Positions 55,474 through 63,968 of a stretch of 64,000 nucleotides of DNA are shown piece after piece. The notes beneath the pieces are model-generated. The model made no database searches, had not been told where the DNA came from, and was given only the letters and a program-made list of their open reading frames with translations. The stretch spans positions 248,001-312,000 of the forward strand of contig JAFLKN010000003.1 in NCBI GenBank assembly GCA_019163175.1, in the 5' to 3' direction. Every line of letters starts with the position of its first letter. Within the stretch, counting starts at the first letter, position 1. The translations under genes and the position numbers were made by a program. This stretch comes from Prolixibacteraceae bacterium. GTDB taxonomy: Bacteria; Bacteroidota; Bacteroidia; Bacteroidales; Prolixibacteraceae.

Positions 55474-56244
55474 ATGAACATCTTCTCATTCGACAATACC
55501 TTTGAAGGGCTGCTGACTTTGGTTTTTGAAAGCTACCGGCTGAAACTCTTTCCTGATGAAATCCTTTCAGGAGAAGGGAGTCAGAATGTTCTGTTTGGTT
55601 CAAGCATTACCATCGGAACCAACGACCAAAAAGCCGAACGTGTCTGGAATGGAATTATCGCTCATTCGTCGGAAGTAAACGCACACCGCATTTACCGGAC
55701 TTTCCTGTCAGGACAAACCGATACGCCTTTGCTGCTGGTGAAATTCATCCGGCTAATAATTGATTCCAACCGAAACCAGGAAACCAATTTTTCAGAACCG
55801 GTGGTCGTTGAAGTCAATAAACTGCACCAGAAAGTCTGCAAGGAAGCCCACCGGGTTCAGATGTTTGTGCGGTTTCAGAAGACCATTGAAGACAGTTATT
55901 ACGCATCATTTGCCCCGATGTACGATGTTCTTCCGCTGTGCATTCCACATTTCAAAGACCGTTTTGCCGATCAATTGTGGATTATTTACGACCTGAAACG
56001 CAACTATGGCTTTTTGTACGACCTGAAAAATGTTACCCGTGTGGTGTTCGACGAACTGAAAGTGAATCCACAGAACGGACAGTTGCATTCCTCCCTTTTG
56101 GCCGATGACGAAAAACTCTTTCAGCAACTATGGAAACAATACTACAAAAGCATCTGCATTCTGGAACGTAAGAACCCCAAAGTACACCGTCAACTTCTGC
56201 CCCAACGCTTCTGGAAATACCTTCCGGAGAAAGGCGTTTTATGA
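55474..56244 (+). CDS. TIGR03915-family putative DNA repair protein
   Basis: A 256-residue protein, the usual partner of the radical SAM DNA-repair enzyme upstream. Recognisable features are the start FSFDNTFEGLLTLVFESYRLKLFPDEI, the central VCKEAHRVQMFVRFQKTIEDSYYASFAPMYDVLPLCIPHFKDRFADQLWIIYDLKRNYGFLYD block, and the end NPKVHRQLLPQRFWKYLPE. In many bacteria this domain is fused to a uracil-DNA-glycosylase-like domain; here it stands alone, so the glycosylase part is absent or elsewhere. The biochemical role is not known. A phrase-like repeat lies between the two genes, but they are still probably one unit. Confidence 0.88.
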   Translation: MNIFSFDNTFEGLLTLVFESYRLKLFPDEILSGEGSQNVLFGSSITIGTNDQKAERVWNGIIAHSSEVNAHRIYRTFLSGQTDTPLLLVKFIRLIIDSNRNQETNFSEPVVVEVNKLHQKVCKEAHRVQMFVRFQKTIEDSYYASFAPMYDVLPLCIPHFKDRFADQLWIIYDLKRNYGFLYDLKNVTRVVFDELKVNPQNGQLHSSLLADDEKLFQQLWKQYYKSICILERKNPKVHRQLLPQRFWKYLPEKGVL

Positions 56245-56280
56245 AAATTTGGAGTCGTGAAAAACTTTATTTCCTGAACG

Positions 56281-56310
56281 CTTGTTATTGTGGTATTAAT
56301 TTTATTTTTT
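56281..56310 (+). promoter_or_regulatory. Candidate promoter of the trp operon
   Basis: CTTG (56281-56284), an 18-bp spacer and TATTTTTT (56303-56310; one mismatch to TAnnTTTG) are followed by the first leader peptide 23 bp later. There is no Trp-repressor palindrome that I recognise. Confidence 0.4.
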
Positions 56311-56332
56311 TGCTGCATCAAAAAAGTACAAA

Positions 56333-56398
56333 ATGATCAAAAATACAAATACAGTATGGTGTCCGTGGTGGGGTCTTCTCGTTAACTCGAGGGGTTAA
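56333..56398 (+). CDS. trpL: First trp leader peptide (three Trp codons)
   Basis: A 21-codon reading frame, too short for ordinary gene calling. It starts at ATG 56333 after an A-rich ribosome-binding region and ends with TAA at 56396-56398. Codons 9-13 read Trp-Cys-Pro-Trp-Trp (TGG at 56357, 56366 and 56369). A ribosome short of tryptophanyl-tRNA would stall there. A U-tailed terminator follows 32 nt after the stop, and trpE is the next long gene. The peptide itself has no expected function. The Trp run and position are directly seen; regulation by stalling is inferred from classical trp attenuation. Confidence 0.85.
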   Translation: MIKNTNTVWCPWWGLLVNSRG

Positions 56399-56461
56399 AG
56401 CCATATTTGTATTTTTTCAAAATATAATGGCCTGCTCCTCAAAAGCAGGTTTTTTGTTTTT
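56375..56461 (+). promoter_or_regulatory. First trp attenuator
   Basis: Region 1 CTTCTCG (56375-56381) can pair with region 2 CGAGGGG (56388-56394). Region 2 GAGGGG (56389-56394) can instead pair with region 3 CTCCTC (56435-56440), forming an antiterminator. The terminator is CCTGCT (56431-56436) with AGCAGG (56444-56449), followed by TTTTTTGTTTTT. The antiterminator uses part of the terminator's left arm and loop. A ribosome at the stop codon (56396-56398) would cover region 2, while one stalled at the Trp codons would free it. Another imperfect pairing (GCCAT, 56400-56404, with ATGGC, 56427-56431) is also possible. Confidence 0.75.
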
Positions 56462-56486
56462 ATTAGGTAAGCTTGGAAGATAAAAG

Positions 56487-56555
56487 ATGATGAATTCGAT
56501 AAAAAATATTTGGTGGTGGCACAGAAACTTTTCGCAAACCCGTGGAAGGAAGTAG
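56487..56555 (+). CDS. trpL: Second trp leader peptide (Trp-Trp-Trp)
   Basis: A 22-codon reading frame from ATG 56487 (a second ATG is at 56490) to TAG 56553-56555, preceded by GGAAGA 7-12 bp upstream, a better ribosome site than is usual here. Codons 9-11 are three consecutive TGG (56511-56519), followed by a basic stretch. It has the same layout as the first leader: Met, Asn/Lys-rich start, Trp cluster at codon 9, stop about 35 nt later. The stretch between the first terminator and this frame is only 25 nt, so transcripts that escape the first terminator must pass this one before trpE. The two leaders may have arisen by duplication. Confidence 0.85.
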   Translation: MMNSIKNIWWWHRNFSQTRGRK

Positions 56556-56618
56556 CTATCATTGTAAAAAAATGAACAAAAAAGCGGCTTATCGGAACAC
56601 GGTAAGCCGCTTTTTTTT
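56527..56618 (+). promoter_or_regulatory. Second trp attenuator
   Basis: The terminator is AAAGCGGCTTA (56581-56591) with TAAGCCGCTTT (56603-56613), with A-run before and T-run to 56618, stronger than the first. The segment AAGTAGCT (56550-56557), which spans the leader stop codon, can pair with AGCGGCTT (56583-56590) at seven of eight positions and would block the terminator. ACTTTT (56527-56532) can pair with GGAAGT (56548-56553) as the region 1-2 hairpin. This again fits Trp-codon stalling control. Confidence 0.72.
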
Positions 56619-56634
56619 AGTGGCCCCCTTCTTA

Positions 56635-56728
56635 TTCCCCCCAAATGGGGGAAAGCTTAGGACACTGAAAAGAATGAAATCCCAGCCCTGTAAGGGCGAC
56701 ATATAATAGCCCGGGGCAACGCCCCGGG
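56635..56728. repeat. REP-like palindromes before trpE
   Basis: Three short palindromes in a row: TTCCCCC...GGGGGAA (56635-56653), GCCCT-gta-AGGGC (56685-56697) and CCCGGGGC-aac-GCCCCGGG (56710-56728), the last two separated by GACATATAATAG. The GCCCT/ATATAATAG/CCCGGGGC combination is of the dispersed Bacteroidota repeat type. It lies between the second attenuator and trpE and is part of the trp leader RNA. Confidence 0.7.
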
Positions 56729-56749
56729 TAGAAAGAACAAAGAAGAATG

Positions 56750-56797
56750 CCGTCCGCGAGAAAATGAAATACAAAACAAAAATTCTCTCTCGGACGG
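56750..56797. repeat. Inverted repeat upstream of trpE
   Basis: CCGTCCG (56750-56756) and CGGACGG (56791-56797) are exact inverted copies with partial inner pairing (GAGAA with TTCTC) and an A-rich loop. There is no T-run, so it is not a terminator. It may be another dispersed repeat or an mRNA structure. Confidence 0.5.
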
Positions 56798-56871
56798 AAA
56801 GGCAAAGAACAAATTCAGAATAAAAAACAAAGACAATAAATACAACGATTACAACAAAAACATCATATCGC

Positions 56872-58281
56872 ATGAAAGAAATTAATGTACAAGTCAGCGT
56901 AAAAAAGATACTTGCCGACACCTTAACTCCGGTGAGTGTTTACCTGAAATTCAGGGATTTATTCCCGAATTCGATATTGCTCGAAAGTTCCGACTATCAC
57001 GGGCACGAAAATGCCTATTCGTTCATCTGCATCAAGCCAATGGCCTGCTTTACCGCCGATAGTGGCGAAATCACGATCGAATACAATGGCCGCGAAAAGT
57101 TGAACAAAATCGTTTCTCCGGAATGTCGGGTCGATCAGCAATTGGACGCGTTTTTTAAGTCGTTCAAATTATCCGGAGAAACAGAGAACCTTCCTGCCAA
57201 CGGACTTTTCGGCTACATCAGTTATGATGCGGTAAAGTATTTCGAAAAAATTGAAATCACTGCGGAAAAGAAAGAAGCGTACTCGGTTCCGGAAGTGAAG
57301 TACTGTTTTTACAAATATATTGTGGCTATCGATCACCACAAAGACATGATTTACCTGATCGAAAACCTGATGGAAGGCGAAACCAAAGAGATTGGCCAAA
57401 TTGAATCTTTGCTCCGGAACCTGACATTTTCGCCTACTCAGTTTGATACTGTTGGAGACGAAGTTTCGAACATCACCAATGAAGAGTACAAGTACATGGT
57501 GAGCAAAGGCAAGGAACATTGTTTCCGCGGCGACGTTTTCCAGATTGTTCTTTCGCGCCAGTTTTCGCAACCGTTTAAAGGCGACGAATTCAACGTTTAC
57601 AGGGCCTTGCGCTCGGTAAATCCTTCTCCGTATTTGTTCTTCTTCGACTACGGAACTTACCGGATATTTGGATCAAGTCCTGAAGCTGAACTACGAATTA
57701 AGAAAGACCGTGCCATCATCAACCCGATTGCCGGAACTTTTAAACGTTCCGGAAACGATGATGAGGACCGCCGTTCAGCAGAACGTTTGTGTGCCGACCC
57801 AAAAGAAAATGCTGAACATGTGATGCTGGTCGATCTGGCCCGTAACGACCTGAGCCGCAATGCCAGCGATGTTCGGGTTGACAGCTACCGACAGGTTCAG
57901 TACTTTTCTCATGTCATTCATTTGGTGTCCGAAGTTTCAGGTAAATTGCCCGAAAATACCAACATGATCACCGTTTTGGGCGATTCGTTTCCGGCAGGAA
58001 CATTATCAGGAGCTCCGAAACACCGTGCCATGCAATTGATCGACACTTACGAAAACCAGCGTCGCAGCTATTATGGCGGATGCATTGGTTATCTGGGATT
58101 CGACAATTCTTTGAATCATGCCATCATGATTCGTTCTTTCCTCAGCAAAGGAAATACTTTGTACTATCAGGCAGGTGCCGGTGTGGTTGCCGATTCGCAG
58201 GAAGAAAGCGAACTTCAGGAAGTAAACAACAAACTGGCGGCTTTGAAAAAAGCGCTGGAAATAGCGAAAGAGATAAACTAG
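56872..58281 (+). CDS. trpE: Anthranilate synthase component I
   Basis: A 469-residue chorismate-using enzyme. With TrpG it makes anthranilate, the first step of tryptophan synthesis. The tryptophan feedback-binding motif LLESS is at 36-40. The catalytic domain has the conserved FRGDVFQIVLSRQF, NPSPYLFFF, IFGSSPEAEL, INPIAGTFKR and DLARNDLSRNA blocks, and ends with PAGTLSGAPKHRAMQLID and YYGGCIGYLGFD. So it should be feedback-inhibited by Trp as well as attenuated at the RNA level. It is the first structural gene after the tandem leader. The next gene, trpG, is separated by a repeat-filled 153-bp spacer. Confidence 0.97.
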   Translation: MKEINVQVSVKKILADTLTPVSVYLKFRDLFPNSILLESSDYHGHENAYSFICIKPMACFTADSGEITIEYNGREKLNKIVSPECRVDQQLDAFFKSFKLSGETENLPANGLFGYISYDAVKYFEKIEITAEKKEAYSVPEVKYCFYKYIVAIDHHKDMIYLIENLMEGETKEIGQIESLLRNLTFSPTQFDTVGDEVSNITNEEYKYMVSKGKEHCFRGDVFQIVLSRQFSQPFKGDEFNVYRALRSVNPSPYLFFFDYGTYRIFGSSPEAELRIKKDRAIINPIAGTFKRSGNDDEDRRSAERLCADPKENAEHVMLVDLARNDLSRNASDVRVDSYRQVQYFSHVIHLVSEVSGKLPENTNMITVLGDSFPAGTLSGAPKHRAMQLIDTYENQRRSYYGGCIGYLGFDNSLNHAIMIRSFLSKGNTLYYQAGAGVVADSQEESELQEVNNKLAALKKALEIAKEIN

Positions 58282-58434
58282 TAGGCAGTCTCAGTGTTCA
58301 GTAGCCTTTGGTCATTGTTGTCATTCGTTTCACGTCATTAATTGTCATTAGCTACGCGTCAGATTACAATGAATGACAACCAATGACTGAATGACAATAA
58401 ATGACAAATTTTAAAACTTGAAACTTATACCATC
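58282..58434. repeat. Phrase-like repetitive spacer, copy B (trpE-trpG)
   Basis: The spacer is made of GTCATT units on one side (GTCATTGTTGTCATTCG, ACGTCATTAATTGTCATT) and their inverse on the other (AATGAATGACAACCAATGAC, AATGACAATAAATGAC), so it can fold into long imperfect stems. GTCATTCGTTTCACGTCATT is the inverse of a 20-mer at copy A with one mismatch. It ends in AAACTTGAAACTTA, like other trp spacers. Confidence 0.65.
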
Positions 58435-59034
58435 ATGAAAATAGTAGTCATAGATAATTACGATTCGTTCACGTATAACCTGGTGCATGCCATCAAGAAA
58501 ATATCGGGTTTGCCGGTTGATGTGTTTCGGAACGATGAAATTGCTTTGGACGATCTGGAGCAATACGATAAAATTGTGTTGTCACCGGGTCCGGGAATTC
58601 CAGAGGAAGCCGGATTATTGCTCGACATTATCCGTAGATTTGGACCCAGTAAGAGTATGTTGGGTGTGTGTCTCGGGCATCAGGCCATTGGCGAAGCTTT
58701 TGGCGGAACGCTCACCAACATGAACCGCGTTTTGCATGGAATTGCGACGCCGGTAAACAAAACCAAAGCTGAAACGGTACTTTTCGAAGGACTTCCGGAA
58801 ACTTTCGCAGTTGGGCGGTATCATTCATGGATTGTCAATGAACCTGATCTTCCGGAGTGTTTGCAGATAACCAGTTACGACGACAAGGGACTGATCATGT
58901 CGATGAAACACACTACTTTTGATGTCGAAGGCGTTCAGTTTCATCCCGAGTCGGTGCTGACTCCATTGGGAGAGAAAATGATTGAGAACTGGCTGAAAGC
59001 CTCCCCCAACCCCTCCGAAGGAGGGGCTTTGTAA
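58435..59034 (+). CDS. trpG: Anthranilate synthase component II (glutamine amidotransferase)
   Basis: A 199-residue class I glutamine amidotransferase that feeds ammonia to TrpE. The catalytic triad is Cys79 (GVCLGHQAIGEAFGG), His170 and Glu172 (VQFHPES). The oxyanion PGPG motif is at 51-54. It may also serve aminodeoxychorismate synthase (PabA role); no pab genes are here. The last ten residues (SPNPSEGGAL) are encoded by a palindromic dispersed repeat that runs over the stop codon, so the original C-terminus was probably replaced. The active site is far from this tail, so function should be kept. Confidence 0.96.
   Translation: MKIVVIDNYDSFTYNLVHAIKKISGLPVDVFRNDEIALDDLEQYDKIVLSPGPGIPEEAGLLLDIIRRFGPSKSMLGVCLGHQAIGEAFGGTLTNMNRVLHGIATPVNKTKAETVLFEGLPETFAVGRYHSWIVNEPDLPECLQITSYDDKGLIMSMKHTTFDVEGVQFHPESVLTPLGEKMIENWLKASPNPSEGGAL
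59001..59030. repeat. Palindromic repeat forming the 3' end of trpG
   Basis: CCCCTCC-gaa-GGAGGGG (59010-59026), preceded by CTCCCCCAA, is a dispersed-repeat palindrome lying inside the coding sequence. It encodes the final residues of TrpG before the TAA at 59032-59034. Confidence 0.7.
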
Positions 59035-59071
59035 GTCGCCTATTTTGTCGTACATACAACGATCAAAGTCA

Positions 59072-59117
59072 GTCCCATCGGGACGTAATATTTGTAGCCC
59101 CGGCTTTCAAGCCGGGG
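59072..59117. repeat. REP-like palindrome pair (trpG-trpD)
   Basis: GTCCC-atc-GGGAC (59072-59084) and CCCCGGC-tttcaa-GCCGGGG (59098-59117) with GTAATATTTGTAG between them. The layout (small palindrome, AT-rich linker, GC-rich palindrome) is the same as at 56685-56728. Confidence 0.7.
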
Positions 59118-59138
59118 TAAAGAGAATTCAAAAGTTTG

Positions 59139-59185
59139 GCGCCGACGCACAAATCTATAACAGGGCGTTCCTGTTCTTTCGGCGC
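59139..59185. repeat. Nested hairpin before trpD
   Basis: GCGCCGA (59139-59145) pairs with TCGGCGC (59179-59185), and AACAGG (59159-59164) with CCTGTT (59170-59175) inside it. It has no T-run and lies 42 bp before the trpD start. Confidence 0.5.
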
Positions 59186-59227
59186 AATAGTGAAGCTTTT
59201 GATATTAATATTTGAAATAAAAAAAGA

Positions 59228-60226
59228 ATGAAGGATATTTTAAATTACTTATTTTCCGGAAATTCGCTTTCCAAAGAAGAAGCTCGCAACATACTTGTCA
59301 GCATTGCTGAAGGGCAGTTCTCGGATGCCGAAATTGCTTCGTTCCTGACTGTTTTCCGGATGCGCCGCATCACCGCCTCAGAATTAGCCGGTTTCCGTCA
59401 GGCATTGCTCGAATTGTGCGTGGCCGTCGACCTATCAGAATACAATACCATTGATGTTGTGGGTACCGGTGGCGATGGAAAAGACACCTTCAATATCTCG
59501 ACACTCAGTGCTTTTGTATTGGCTGGTGCAGGCATTAAAGTAACCAAGCATGGAAACTACGGACTATCATCGGTGAGCGGATCGTCAAACATGTTTGAGT
59601 ATTTTGGTTATCAATTCAGCAACAATCAAGATAAATTGCGCCGCGAAGTGGAAGAAGCCGGAATCTGCTTTCTCCATGCACCGCTGTTTCACCCGGCCAT
59701 GAAAAGTGTTGGTTCGGTGAGAAAAGCGCTGAAGGTGAAAACGCTGTTTAATATGATGGGGCCAATTATTAATCCTTCGTTTCCGAAAAACCAATTGGTG
59801 GGCGTTTACGATTTGGACGTGATGGATCTTTATCATCAGGTTTTCAGAGAAAGTGGCCAGAATTACATCATTGTGAACAGTCTGGATGGTTACGACGAAA
59901 TTTCACTAACTGGCGATGCGCGTTTTGTGTCAAACCGGACCGAGGACAGCCTTTCTCCTGCCGATTTTGGGTTTTCGTCGGTCAAACAGGAAGAACTTTA
60001 TGGTGGAGAAACAGTTGCCGATGCTGCAAAAATATTTAGAAGCGTTTTGGAAATGACAGCTACCGACGCTCAGAAAAACGTAGTAATTGCCAATACCGCG
60101 CTGGGAATTCAATGTGTTTATCCTGAAAAGGCTTTGGCTAATTGTGTTGCCGAAGCCTCCGAATCATTGCATTCGGGAAAGGCACTGTCTGCATTTAAAA
60201 AGCTGATGGACTTGAACAGTAAATAG
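59228..60226 (+). CDS. trpD: Anthranilate phosphoribosyltransferase
   Basis: A 332-residue type III phosphoribosyltransferase that joins anthranilate to PRPP. The N-terminal helical domain (YLFSGNSLSKEEARNILVSIAEGQFSDAEIASFLTVFRMR) is standard. The PRPP loop GTGGDGKDTFNIST is at 79-92, followed by KHGNYGLSSVSGSSNMFEYFGY. A usual KHGNRSVSS has Tyr-Gly-Leu here instead of Arg-Ser-Val, a known kind of variation in Bacteroidota; a contribution to anthranilate binding could differ. The metal and PRPP-binding Asp-Glu pair is in the GYDEIS segment. It follows trpG after 193 bp of repeats. Confidence 0.96.
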   Translation: MKDILNYLFSGNSLSKEEARNILVSIAEGQFSDAEIASFLTVFRMRRITASELAGFRQALLELCVAVDLSEYNTIDVVGTGGDGKDTFNISTLSAFVLAGAGIKVTKHGNYGLSSVSGSSNMFEYFGYQFSNNQDKLRREVEEAGICFLHAPLFHPAMKSVGSVRKALKVKTLFNMMGPIINPSFPKNQLVGVYDLDVMDLYHQVFRESGQNYIIVNSLDGYDEISLTGDARFVSNRTEDSLSPADFGFSSVKQEELYGGETVADAAKIFRSVLEMTATDAQKNVVIANTALGIQCVYPEKALANCVAEASESLHSGKALSAFKKLMDLNSK

Positions 60227-60249
60227 TGATCAGTCGCAGTTTACACAAG

Positions 60250-60302
60250 AAGTCCGAAGTCCGAAGAGCCGCTCCCTGAGTAGCGCAGCGTATCGAAGGG
60301 AG
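60250..60302. repeat. Tandem and palindromic repeats in the trpD-trpC spacer
   Basis: GAAGTCC is repeated in tandem (60249-60262). CTCCCT (60272-60277) pairs with AGGGAG (60297-60302) around a GAGTAGCGCAGCGTATCGA core. Just upstream is ATCAGTCGCAG, shared with copy A at 55312. The spacer ends in AATTTGAAACTTG, like the other phrase-type spacers. Confidence 0.6.
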
Positions 60303-60333
60303 TAATAATAGCATACAATTTGAAACTTGATTT

Positions 60334-61119
60334 ATGAATATACTTGACCAAATAAACAACCATAAACGAACTGAAATTGCTGAGGCAAAAAGTAAGGTTT
60401 CGTTGGAGCAATTGAAGGAATCGCCATATTTCAAACGAAAGACGAATTCACTGAAAGCCGCGTTGCTGGCCGAAGGTGCGAGCGGTGTGATTGCCGAATT
60501 CAAAACACAATCGCCATCCAAAGGAGTGATAAATGCCGAGGCAGAAGCTTCGGAAGTTACTGCTGCCTATGTGGCTGCAGGTGCAAGTGGGTTGTCGGTT
60601 TTAACGGATGATCGCTTTTTTGGTGGCTCGTTTGAAAACCTGGCTTCGGCTCGCTGGGCGAATAAAAATATCCCGATTTTGCGCAAAGATTTTATGCTCG
60701 ATCCGTATCAGATTTATGAAGCCCGTGCACATGGCGCCGATGTAATTCTGCTGATTGCCGAAAGTCTGAGCAAACAGTTGTTACTTGAACTGACTGAAAC
60801 CGCCAAAGAAATTGGCTTGGAAGTCTTGGTTGAAGTGCATAGCGCCGAAGAACTGGAGAAGCTGAATCCTTTGGTTGATCTGGTTGGCGTGAACAACCGC
60901 AACCTGAAAACTTTTGAAGTGGATATTCAGACTTCAGTTCGCCTGAGTGAGTTGATTCCTGAGCAGTTTGTGAAAATTTCGGAGAGCGGAATTTCTGATT
61001 CTGAAAGCATCAATAAACTTCGTGCTGCCGGATTTAAAGGTTTCCTGATTGGCGAAACCTTCATGAAAACGGACGATCCGGGCAAAGCCTGCAAGGAGTT
61101 TATTGAAAAGTTGAAATAG
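60334..61119 (+). CDS. trpC: Indole-3-glycerol phosphate synthase
   Basis: A 261-residue TIM-barrel enzyme that closes the indole ring of CdRP. Catalytic residues are in the conserved blocks IAEFKTQSPSKG (Glu55, Lys57, Ser60), SVLTDDRFFGGSFENL, LRKDFMLDPYQIYEARAHGADVILLI (Lys and Asp), EVLVEVHSAEEL (Glu), VGVNNRNLKTFEVD (Asn) and ISESGI (Glu, Ser). Length and order of motifs are normal. The IGEVKKASPSKG of many species is IAEFKTQSPSKG here, as usual for Bacteroidota. It lies in the trp operon between trpD and trpF. Confidence 0.97.
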   Translation: MNILDQINNHKRTEIAEAKSKVSLEQLKESPYFKRKTNSLKAALLAEGASGVIAEFKTQSPSKGVINAEAEASEVTAAYVAAGASGLSVLTDDRFFGGSFENLASARWANKNIPILRKDFMLDPYQIYEARAHGADVILLIAESLSKQLLLELTETAKEIGLEVLVEVHSAEELEKLNPLVDLVGVNNRNLKTFEVDIQTSVRLSELIPEQFVKISESGISDSESINKLRAAGFKGFLIGETFMKTDDPGKACKEFIEKLK

Positions 61120-61137
61120 AAATTTGGCAAACTCGTC

Positions 61138-61231
61138 ACCCCGAATTTATTTCGGGGTCTGTCCTTATATGATGAGATCCTGAAACCCCGTCTGACAAGT
61201 TTGCGGGCAGGAAGTTCAGGATGACGGGGTC
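61138..61231. repeat. Palindromic repeats in the trpC-trpF spacer
   Basis: ACCCCGAA (61138-61145) pairs with TTCGGGGT (61151-61158). A second, longer element has GATCCTGAAACCCCGTC facing TTCAGGATGACGGGGTC (about 61175-61231). These are common dispersed palindromes of the CCTGAA/GACGGGG type. Confidence 0.65.
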
Positions 61232-61243
61232 AATCAAAAAACT

Positions 61244-61897
61244 ATGGTGAATATGAACGAACTGAAAATAAAAGTCTGCGGAATGCGCGATCCTGAAAAC
61301 ATTTCAGGAGTAGTTGCTGCACGACCAGATTTCATCGGATTTATTTTTTACCCAAAGAGCAAACGCTTTGTTGGCTTCGACCATTCGCCGGAAGTACTTT
61401 CAGTTGTTCCTGAGTCGGTAAAAAAAGTAGGCGTTTTTGTCGATGAAACTCCGGAGAAACTGCTGGAAATTTACAAAAACTGGAAATTGGATGTTGTTCA
61501 GTTGCACGGAAATGAAACTCCGGAATATTGCCGGCAAATTCGAAATTCAGGAATCACTGTTTTTAAAGCTTTTTCGGTAGACGAATCGTTTGACTTTGCT
61601 GCACTGGAAGCTTATTCCGGAGTTTGCGATTTCTTTTTATTCGATACCAAAGGTCAGCTTCCGGGCGGAACCGGACAAAAATTCAACTGGGAATTGCTCG
61701 AAAAATACAAAGGTAGTGTTCCGTTCTTTTTGAGTGGCGGAATTGGTCCCGATGACCTAGAAGCTATCCGGAATTTTGAACATCCCCGATGGCGTGGAAT
61801 AGACATTAACAGCGGATTCGAGATTAGTCCGGCCCTGAAAGACGTTGAAAAGGTGAAAAGTTTTATTTCAGCAATTCGGAAATCAAATTATAAATAA
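61244..61897 (+). CDS. trpF: Phosphoribosylanthranilate isomerase
   Basis: A 217-residue TIM-barrel isomerase acting between TrpD and TrpC. The first ATG is at 61244 and a second at 61253; either gives a proper start before LKIKVCGMRDPENI, where the Cys is the general base. VQLHGNETPEYC follows near 88, and LFDTKGQLPGGTGQKFNWELL carries the general acid Asp. LSGGIGPDD and GIDINSGFE form the phosphate site. It is encoded separately from trpC, not fused as in E. coli. It is 22 bp upstream of trpB. Confidence 0.96.
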   Translation: MVNMNELKIKVCGMRDPENISGVVAARPDFIGFIFYPKSKRFVGFDHSPEVLSVVPESVKKVGVFVDETPEKLLEIYKNWKLDVVQLHGNETPEYCRQIRNSGITVFKAFSVDESFDFAALEAYSGVCDFFLFDTKGQLPGGTGQKFNWELLEKYKGSVPFFLSGGIGPDDLEAIRNFEHPRWRGIDINSGFEISPALKDVEKVKSFISAIRKSNYK

Positions 61898-61919
61898 TCA
61901 TTTATCAATCATACATCAA

Positions 61920-63101
61920 ATGAGTTATCAGGTAAACGAAAAAGGTTATTATGGCGAGTTTGGGGGAGCATATATTCCTGAAATGATGGTGCCAAACATC
62001 GAAGAACTTCGAAGAACCTATTTAGAAATAATCAACTCGTACGATTTCAGGCAGGAATTTATTGGCTTGCTGAAAAACTACGTGGGTCGTCCGTCGCCTT
62101 TGTATTTGGCCAAACGACTGTCAGAAAAATATCAAAGCAATATTTATCTGAAGCGCGAAGATTTGAACCATACTGGTTCGCACAAAATAAACAATACCAT
62201 CGGGCAGATTCTGGTGGCCAAAAAATTGGGCAAACACCGCATCATAGCCGAAACCGGTGCTGGTCAGCATGGACTGGCAACTGCCACCGTTTGCGCGCTG
62301 ATGGGCCTGAAATGTATTGTTTACATGGGAGCGGTTGATGTGGAACGACAGGCACCGAATGTAAAAAAAATGCGGATGCTGGGTGCCGAAGTGATTCCGG
62401 CCATCAGCGGAAACCAAACCCTGAAAGACGCAACCAACGAAGCCATGCGCGACTGGATCAACAATCCGGTGGATACTCATTACATCATTGGCTCGGTGGT
62501 TGGACCACATCCGTATCCCGATATGGTGGCACGTTTTCAGTCGGTAATTTCAGAAGAAATTCGTTGGCAGCTCGAAGAACAAACCGGAAAGGAAAATCCG
62601 ACCCGGGTTATTGCGTGTGTGGGTGGCGGAAGCAATGCTGCCGGAGCATTCTATCATTTTCTCGATCAGGAAAGCGTTGAATTAATTGGCGTTGAAGCTG
62701 CCGGTAAAGGTGTTGATACACACGAAACTGCTGCAACGCTAACACTGGGTTCTCCCGGAGTGCTGCACAGTTCGCGTTCAATCCTGATGCAAACCGATGA
62801 TGGACAAGTAACTGAACCATATTCCATCTCTGCAGGGTTGGATTACCCCGGAATTGGACCGATGCATGCCAATTTATTTACCACTCACCGGGCCAAATAC
62901 CTTTGGGCAACCGATGCCGAAGTGTTGGATTCTGCTTTGGAACTGACCCAGTTGGAAGGAATTATACCGGCACTCGAATCGGCTCATGCCTTGGCCGCAC
63001 TTAAGAAAATTCAGCTAAAGCCTGAAGAAGTAACCGTGATCAATCTCTCCGGAAGGGGAGACAAAGACATGGAAACCTATTTAAAACATTTTGGATATTA
63101 A
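61920..63101 (+). CDS. trpB: Tryptophan synthase beta chain
   Basis: A 393-residue PLP enzyme that joins indole and serine to tryptophan, working as a complex with TrpA. The PLP lysine is Lys89 in LNHTGSHKINN. Glu in AETGAGQHG is the catalytic carboxylate, and GGGSNAAGAFY is the PLP-phosphate loop. The start FGGAYIPEMMVPNIEEL and the ending LSGRGDKDMETY are typical of the TrpB1 type that works with TrpA. All key residues are intact. It follows trpF by 22 bp; a phrase-like repeat separates it from trpA. Confidence 0.98.
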   Translation: MSYQVNEKGYYGEFGGAYIPEMMVPNIEELRRTYLEIINSYDFRQEFIGLLKNYVGRPSPLYLAKRLSEKYQSNIYLKREDLNHTGSHKINNTIGQILVAKKLGKHRIIAETGAGQHGLATATVCALMGLKCIVYMGAVDVERQAPNVKKMRMLGAEVIPAISGNQTLKDATNEAMRDWINNPVDTHYIIGSVVGPHPYPDMVARFQSVISEEIRWQLEEQTGKENPTRVIACVGGGSNAAGAFYHFLDQESVELIGVEAAGKGVDTHETAATLTLGSPGVLHSSRSILMQTDDGQVTEPYSISAGLDYPGIGPMHANLFTTHRAKYLWATDAEVLDSALELTQLEGIIPALESAHALAALKKIQLKPEEVTVINLSGRGDKDMETYLKHFGY

Positions 63102-63106
63102 AAAAT

Positions 63107-63172
63107 GTTGCTGGCCTCTGGCTGCTAGCTTCTGGCTTTTTGCCAGTAACCAGTTGTCAGCCACCAGTAGCC
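63107..63172. repeat. CTGGC phrase repeat (trpB-trpA)
   Basis: The spacer repeats CTGGC/GCTAGC/TCTGGC on one side and GCCAG/CCAG/GCCACCAG on the other, so it folds into an imperfect stem. It ends in AAATTTTGAAAACT before trpA. It is of the same style as the other trp spacers, with a different phrase. Confidence 0.55.
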
Positions 63173-63188
63173 TTAAATTTTGAAAACT

Positions 63189-63968
63189 ATGAATCGCATA
63201 AATAAGCTTTTTCAAGAGAAAAAAGGACAGATACTTTCGGTGTATTTCACTGCCGGATATCCGAATCTGGAAGATACTGTTCCGGTTATTGAGGAACTGG
63301 TTAAAAATGGCGTTGACCTGATCGAAATCGGGATGCCATTTTCTGATCCGGTTGCAGATGGGCCAGTGATTCAGCATAGCAGTCTGATTGCCTTGCAAAA
63401 TGGAATGAGTATCCGGAAACTCTTCGAACAGTTAAAAGACATTCGCCAAACGGTTGATATTCCACTGATTCTAATGGGCTATATTAATCCGGTTTTGCAA
63501 TACGGCGTTAAGGCTTTCTGCCAGAAATGCAAGGAAGTAGGCATCGATGGGCTGATTATTCCCGATCTTCCGATGGATGTGTTTGAAGAGGAATTCAAGG
63601 CGGTTTTTGAAGCCAATGACCTGCACAATATATTCCTGATTACGCCACAAACCTCGGAGGAACGGCTTCGGAAAATCGATGAAGTTTCAACCGGGTTTAT
63701 TTACATGGTTTCGAGCAATTCGACCACCGGGGCAAAAACCAGCGTTTCTGAGTTTCAGAAAGAATATTTTGAACGGGTCAATTCTTTAAGCTTAAAGAAT
63801 CCACGATTGATCGGGTTTGGTATTTCGAACGCCGAAACCTTTGCCAATGCTTGTCAATACGCGAATGGGGCCATCATCGGAAGTGCCTTTGTAAAAGCGA
63901 TGGAAGGATCGGAACCCCTCGGCCAAAAAATTTCCGGTTTTATTAATTCTATTGCAACTGATATTTAA
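63189..63968 (+). CDS. trpA: Tryptophan synthase alpha chain
   Basis: A 259-residue TIM-barrel enzyme that splits indole-3-glycerol phosphate and channels indole to TrpB. The ATG at 63189 is chosen over an in-frame TTG at 63180. Catalytic Glu46 (LIEIGMPFSDP) and Asp57 (VADGPVIQ) are present. Loop 6 and phosphate motifs are NSTTGAKTSVS and LIGFGISNAETF, followed by GAIIGSAFVKAM. Length is normal. It is the last gene of the operon; no terminator is visible in the remaining 32 bases of the window, so the transcript end lies beyond it. Confidence 0.97.
   Translation: MNRINKLFQEKKGQILSVYFTAGYPNLEDTVPVIEELVKNGVDLIEIGMPFSDPVADGPVIQHSSLIALQNGMSIRKLFEQLKDIRQTVDIPLILMGYINPVLQYGVKAFCQKCKEVGIDGLIIPDLPMDVFEEEFKAVFEANDLHNIFLITPQTSEERLRKIDEVSTGFIYMVSSNSTTGAKTSVSEFQKEYFERVNSLSLKNPRLIGFGISNAETFANACQYANGAIIGSAFVKAMEGSEPLGQKISGFINSIATDI

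Follow-up and report, generated by a model that had tools for sequence, protein, structure and literature searches.

Are the trp genes of one operon controlled by two attenuators in series? The question is raised by a locus in a Prolixibacteraceae genome of 5.92 Mb in 74 contigs, from which a stretch of 64,000 nt, hereafter the window, was analyzed. The original prediction, made from the letters of the window, placed two Trp-rich leader peptides in tandem before trpE, each with its own terminator and its own alternative pairing.

Leader units and transcript upstream of trpE

A complete trpEGDCFBA operon was found at 56872-63968 on the forward strand from the ORF list and Pfam matches. A DUF4130 gene ends upstream at 56244, and the gap between this gene and trpE contains both leader units. 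The features are listed below. The genes trpG to trpA were identified by ORF and Pfam, and their names were assigned from family and gene order.

56282..56313, +, probable trp promoter, placed by eye: TTG at 56282-56284 and TTTTTTTGC at 56305-56313
56333..56398, +, leader peptide 1, MIKNTNTVWCPWWGLLVNSRG: ORF; Trp-run ORF also in relatives
56340..56416, +, P1/P2 hairpin of unit 1: predicted fold
56389..56402, +, antiterminator strand 1, GAGGGG.....AGCC, overlapping stop codon 1 (56396-56398): own/foreign pairing test
56429..56460, +, terminator 1, GGCCTGCTCCTCAAAAGCAGGTT and T-rich tail: hairpin at 56429-56451, tail to about 56460
56487..56555, +, leader peptide 2, MMNSIKNIWWWHRNFSQTRGRK: ORF; WWW leaders in the family and the phylum
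56539..56560, +, antiterminator strand 2, CCCGTGGAAGGAAGTAGCTATC, overlapping stop codon 2 (56553-56555): own/foreign pairing test
56578..56618, +, terminator 2, an A-run, GCGGCTTATCGGAACACGGTAAGCCGC, and T8: fold, detector, and relatives
56872..58281, +, trpE, first structural gene of the operon: PF04715 and PF00425
58435-59034, +, trpG
59228-60226, +, trpD
60334-61119, +, trpC
61244-61897, +, trpF
61920-63101, +, trpB
63180-63968, +, trpA

Both leader ORFs were confirmed from the sequence at the predicted positions, with the Trp runs W-C-P-W-W in leader 1 (Trp codons starting at 56357, 56366, and 56369) and W-W-W in leader 2 (56511, 56514, and 56517). The terminator predicted after each leader was also found. 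In the predicted fold of unit 1, the 5' arm of P1/P2 (56340-56359, its last bases being the first Trp codon) and the 3' arm (56401-56416) enclose a smaller stem. Each unit has a short ORF with a Trp-codon run and an intrinsic terminator before trpE, consistent with the criteria for a ribosome-mediated attenuator.

The interval 56245-56871 was scanned with a detector that calls three Trp codons within six codons plus a terminator. Exactly two such units were found. Among 1500 dinucleotide-preserving shuffles of this interval, one held one unit and none held two. A simple terminator scan reports terminator 1 and misses terminator 2.

The promoter consensus of Bacteroidota is TTG at -33 and TAnnTTTG at -7. 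The candidate promoter resembles this type with an inexact match: by eye, the TTG...TTTG-type resemblance lies about 20-51 nt before the first ATG (ATG1) in the window, and neither the exact TAnnTTTG scan nor the sigma-70 scan gave a match at 56282..56313. A TTG and then a T-rich stretch precede ATG1 in most of 10 sequences inspected by eye. A promoter of its own for unit 2 was considered and rejected. In the 64 genomes with both landmarks placed, the exact TAnnTTTG pattern, the only pattern searched, was absent from the stretch that separates terminator 1 from the second Trp run. In 78 genomes, the second ATG follows the terminator-1 stem by 4-107 nt, and the median of 21.5 nt leaves no room for a promoter. 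The exact pattern was also absent between terminator 2 and trpE in the window. Serial control of one transcript, which would start from a single promoter, is the simplest reading.

Terminator 2 lies 253 nt from the trpE ATG in the window, and this spacer ranges from 31 to 296 nt among the measured genomes of g1, the genus of the window. Part of the spacer (56701-56804) has a 74% similar copy in the same genome (C47:5849-5952) and is predicted to form strong hairpins. A match to RF01687 (Acido-Lenti-1) lies at 56684-56728 (-), between terminator 2 and trpE, and a weaker match, below the cut-off, lies at 59071-59117 (-), between trpG and trpD. Since this model matches 20 places in the genome at E <= 0.01 (4 above the cut-off), RF01687 behaves like a dispersed repeat here.

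Antiterminator pairing and predicted folding

In the proposed mechanism, a ribosome that reaches the leader stop codon would cover the antiterminator strand, and the terminator would form. When charged tRNA-Trp is scarce, the ribosome would wait at the Trp codons and block the P1 hairpin. The freed antiterminator strand would then capture part of the nascent terminator, and RNA polymerase would pass.

The partner of antiterminator strand 1 is the left arm and loop of terminator 1 (56429-56440). The predicted pairing GAGGGG:CTCCTC proved right for the window, and it extends by GCC:GGC. The two sides change in step across lineages, giving AGAAG:CTTCT, AGGAG:CTCCT, GAGGAG:CTCCTC, and GTAAGAAGC:GCTTCTTAC. 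Because the MAFFT alignment A1 displaces the antiterminator strand by one base between genera, no pair counts were made for antiterminator 1, and an alignment-free test of own against foreign partners was used. The energy with the left arm and loop of terminator 1 was -14.8 kcal/mol for own and -11.7 kcal/mol for foreign partners. The z value was -10.7 for 68 distinct sequences and -5.5 for 16 representatives (0/5000 permutations each), the representatives limiting, rather than removing, the inflation that relatedness brings to own/foreign tests. Against the loop and right arm of terminator 1, no own/foreign signal was found for this strand.

Antiterminator 2 is a two-part helix around the stop codon. 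In the window, CCGTG...TAGC pairs with GGCT...CACGG, so that the partners of strand 2 are GCGGCTTATC and CACGG inside terminator 2. The original prediction had given AAGTAGCT:AGCGGCTT as the second antiterminator. This pairing stood as one half of the helix and was rejected as the whole, since the half formed by CCGTG (56540-56544) and CACGG (56598-56602) had been missed. The two halves are together in the best fold of the window solely at 3' ends 56603-56606. The CCGTG:CACGG half was also found in the own-strand pairings of many relatives. Elsewhere, the helix takes the form of TCGTGA with TCACGA in flavobacteria and of TCGGAAGTT with AACTTCCGA in genome G031. Tested with the whole terminator, antiterminator 2 gave a z value of -12.7 for 122 distinct sequences (0/5000 permutations). 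For 42 representatives (17 in the family and 25 outside), the own and foreign values were -16.9 and -13.1, with z -8.6 and again 0/5000.

The own partner was the single best in 5/68 cases for antiterminator 1 and 7/122 for antiterminator 2, which counts against the pairings. It was in the top tenth in 27/68 and 39/122 cases, respectively. The own partner is rarely the single best because many terminators are alike, and the signal sits in the means. As judged from these sequence comparisons, covariation supports both antiterminators. P1, P2, and terminator 1 were supported as well, with two-sided changes at 14 of 26 pairs in a consensus fold made from 37 unit-1 sequences, the window included.

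The peptide of leader 1 was also considered as the active part. TnaC-like arrest is a precedent for regulatory nascent peptides, and leader 1 might likewise sense free tryptophan or another ligand through W-L-P-W-W-G-L-L, without codon stalling. As this explanation would have it, the core of the peptide hardly varies in g5, g6, g11, g16, and most of g1. However, the invariance of the unit-1 sequence includes wobble positions and extends beyond the stop codon, and therefore points to a constraint on the RNA. In addition, non-Trp residues are changed and Trp codons kept in g23 (WSWWQ, WFWWLS, and WWWPC) and in g9 and g17 (WLWWG). A peptide sensor is thus very improbable, and the reading of Trp codons by the ribosome is preferred for leader 1.

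The effect of ribosome position on folding was investigated. For unit 1 of the window, the antiterminator fold was obtained from 3' end 56439 onward with the ribosome on the third Trp codon, and the terminator fold with the ribosome at the stop codon. In minimum free energy (MFE) folds of the relatives, terminator 1 formed in 80/80 genomes in the stop-codon state. With the ribosome at the last Trp codon, it persisted in 63/80 and was abolished in 17/80. Terminator 2 formed in 64/64 genomes in the stalled and stop-codon states alike, and its exclusion in the stalled state costs 10.75 kcal/mol on average. Since terminator 2 dominates the stalled state in every genome and terminator 1 in 63/80, antitermination must be kinetic. 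According to these models, unit 2 can only work when antiterminator 2 forms ahead of the terminator and is not replaced by it in time. In the E. coli trp leader, the terminator is more stable than the antiterminator.

Terminator 2 of the window is much more stable than terminator 1 (-25.6 vs. -7.8 kcal/mol), and the spacing of the Trp codons differs between the units (W-x-x-W-W vs. W-W-W). Both differences would suit two units that respond to different ranges of one signal, for example to different severities of Trp limitation, rather than multiplying. Excerpts of a modeling paper (PMC1183508) describe sensitivity as set by the number and fraction of regulatory codons, in line with such a division of ranges. 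However, both units read Trp codons only. Separate ranges are a possible explanation, less likely than gates whose effects multiply.

Distribution of the units in Prolixibacteraceae and beyond

TrpE matches were found in 127/140 Prolixibacteraceae genomes, and 13/140 had no match. The survey covered 123 trpE upstream regions. It left out G047 (trpE at the contig start), G079 and G123 (partial matches), and G048, which carries both units and stands outside the count. Sixteen loci were removed before counting: L001, and L034-L047 and L054, which lie on the same contigs as G-handle loci. The survey detector accepted any two Trp in six codons for leader 2; the single unit that it called in g2 is probably due to chance. 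Both units were present in 78/123 regions, in nine genera: g1 (17), g5 (31), g6 (1), g9 (13), g10 (1), g11 (3), g16 (4), g17 (4), and g23 (4).

In G132, both units are present with a nucleotidyltransferase gene and a HepT-like gene (an MNT/HEPN-type pair) between them, and leader 2 begins at the end of the HepT-like gene (L221). In G041 (L220), the units are separated by a comparable nucleotidyltransferase ORF and by the last part of a HepT-like frame; a full HepT-like ORF was absent from the ORF list there. These inserted genes suggested that the units are separable modules.

Apart from 17 merged loci described below, the other family loci carry a single unit (unit 2 or unit 1), are interrupted by contig breaks or N runs, or have trpE behind another gene. 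In G136, unit 1 is the unit that remains. Terminator 1 is weakened in G020. By eye, the frame upstream of trpE in G030 and G101 (g2 and g13) resembles the end of trpB. Loss of the Trp codons with the terminators kept, which the original prediction had named as contrary evidence, was seen in part in one genome: G084 has unit 1 and, by eye, a decayed unit 2, in which one Trp codon is left in leader 2 and the second hairpin has decayed as well. Terminator 1 and a nearby in-frame ATG (no more than about 57 nt away) were both present in 80 cases and both absent in 15, with the ATG only in 1 and the terminator only in 0, counts that reflect few independent events.

Among 65 loci outside the family, 53 had one unit, 12 had none, and 0 had two; these loci are the remainder of the best 80 of 590 TrpE matches and not a random sample. 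Since 53/65 outside loci carry one unit, unit 2 is, as far as sequence comparison goes, the general Bacteroidota trp leader and not new in itself. By the same comparison, unit 1 is an addition seen only in Prolixibacteraceae among the loci searched. When core 1 was sought as an exact pattern across 393 genomes of the order, one genome matched, a family member; this result says little, as only five genomes of the sample belong to the family and the window itself escapes the pattern. With the unit-1 covariance model, the window genome yielded no further strong site (next best E 0.07).

Twelve places with weak matches to the unit-1 model, in relatives and in the window genome, were inspected by eye. 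Three were unit 1, one lay before a cysteine-synthase-like gene, three lay before ilvD-like genes, and five lay after or near others. A probable Cys leader peptide (MCCWFLC) and a terminator precede the cysteine-synthase-like gene, and Leu/Ile/Val-rich leader peptides, each with a terminator, precede the ilvD-like genes, again by eye. The Cys and Leu/Ile/Val leader loci are L215 (G098), L217 (G080), L223 (G081), and L224 (G138).

Regulation by unit 2 only was weighed against these results; unit 1 would then be left over from a leader duplication or would terminate a transcript that comes from upstream. Several lineages (g7, g8, g12, g15, g21, and G015) lack terminator 1, and loci outside the family usually have one unit. 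The units are also weakly alike, as the unit-1 model matches unit 2 of the window (31 bits, E 0.15) and of G009 (E 0.0018). These points are in line with a relic. However, compensatory change was found between antiterminator 1 and terminator 1 and also in P1, P2, and T1. Unit 1 is retained in nine genera, and in G136 it is what remains. Such an origin of unit 1 is accordingly very unlikely, and a working unit 1 is the preferred reading.

The core of unit 1 has the form AAATACAATATGGCTT...TGGTGGGG...AGCCATATTGGTATTTT in most relatives. In 17 genomes, it lies beside unit 2 without terminator 1. Of these merged loci, 15 were found by script, and G073 and G100 were added on inspection (L023, L024, L026-L028, L030-L033, L114, L115, L119, L165, and L185-L188). 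In g7, g15, g21, and G015, nearly every letter of the core is conserved, and leader 2 follows it directly. In g8, it has a related form, apparently a separate event. An in-frame ATG was not found within about 57 nt in g7, g8, g15, g21, and G015; G128 has one 90 nt upstream. In total, 15 of the 17 genomes lack a nearby in-frame ATG; the simple two-attenuator model does not explain why the core persists in these 17 genomes. In alignment A2, which covers 12/17 merged sequences, the P2 loop differs in length by 1-2 bases. An internal ATG of g12 shares its frame with the Trp codons of the core, and this frame continues into the WWW of leader 2 (MANSWWDPSKEGKPYW...IWWW); the core Trp codons of G073 give MAWWGALIKRVI. 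Tentatively, the core may be a structured RNA with a job beyond encoding leader 1. Where merged, it might gate the initiation or timing of leader 2 and turn two Trp sensors into one composite attenuator, an idea that we hold with considerable doubt.

Probable serial attenuation and known systems

Two ribosome-mediated transcription attenuators very probably stand in series between one promoter and trpE, as the original prediction proposed. This reading is supported by conservation, compensatory pairing, the joint presence or absence of the ATG and terminator 1, and the median spacing of 21.5 nt. Unit 2 would be the ordinary trp leader of the phylum and unit 1 a family-specific extra gate. We infer that both leaders are translated and that stalling occurs at their Trp codons. 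The polymerase must pass both gates; therefore, read-through would be roughly the product of the two. Serial gates would lower basal expression and steepen the response, and the pair probably gives the trp genes a tighter response when tryptophan is short. Natural variants exist within the family (both units, unit 1 only, unit 2 only, split, and merged) in which the effect of serial attenuation on basal level, range, and steepness could be measured.

RF01692 (Bacteroid-trp, the Bacteroidete tryptophan peptide leader) is listed in Table 1 of PMC2864571. The window units share with this family a leader with Trp codons, Trp codons in a hairpin arm, a following terminator, and a position upstream of trp genes. 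The RF01692 family is a single leader, whereas the window has two units, with scores (24.6 and 23.3 bits) that fall short of the 49-bit cut-off. The cut-off was reached in 0/21 genomes (the window's own, 12 of its genus, and 8 of its order). Single leaders of the same site scored 58-73 bits in 6/15 loci searched. By site and anatomy, rather than by model score, unit 2 is the apparent counterpart of RF01692.

The E. coli trpL type has a leader peptide with adjacent Trp codons and an alternative antiterminator and terminator. The window is similar in its adjacent Trp codons and alternative structures. It differs in having two such units in series, and the partners of its antiterminator 2 lie in the left arm as well as in the loop/right arm of the terminator.

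Leader-peptide attenuation before amino-acid operons was inferred in Flavobacterium psychrophilum, according to excerpts of PMC9723704. The Salmonella mgtCBR leader also has two leader ORFs within one leader, and these sense different signals, ATP and proline; the metE leader, unlike mgtCBR, has two presumed intrinsic terminators (both from excerpts of PMC3641672). Compared with mgtCBR as given there, the window units would both read Trp, and each has its own terminator. Among the matches listed in the openly licensed literature, no description of two same-amino-acid leader-peptide attenuators in series was found, which is weak evidence of absence. On the basis of these comparisons, the pair of trp attenuators is a new arrangement of known parts.

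A well-established analog is found in Bacillota. In the excerpts of PMC12452182, T-box pairs make up 99% of contiguous riboswitches where Bacillota trp genes are tabulated, and same-ligand tandem riboswitches are expected to respond more digitally. The tandem T-boxes described in that source are likewise two transcription switches in series before trp genes that respond to the same signal, tRNA-Trp. They differ in that T-boxes bind tRNA directly, whereas the window units would use a codon-reading ribosome. A T-box identity of the window units was rejected: no T-box family appeared in the permissive covariance-model list for 56200-56900, and the sole gathering-score match in the window was RF01687. 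A tandem of leader peptides in one Bacteroidota family and a tandem of T-boxes in Bacillota, with unrelated means of sensing, suggest that a doubled tRNA-Trp gate has been repeatedly favored.
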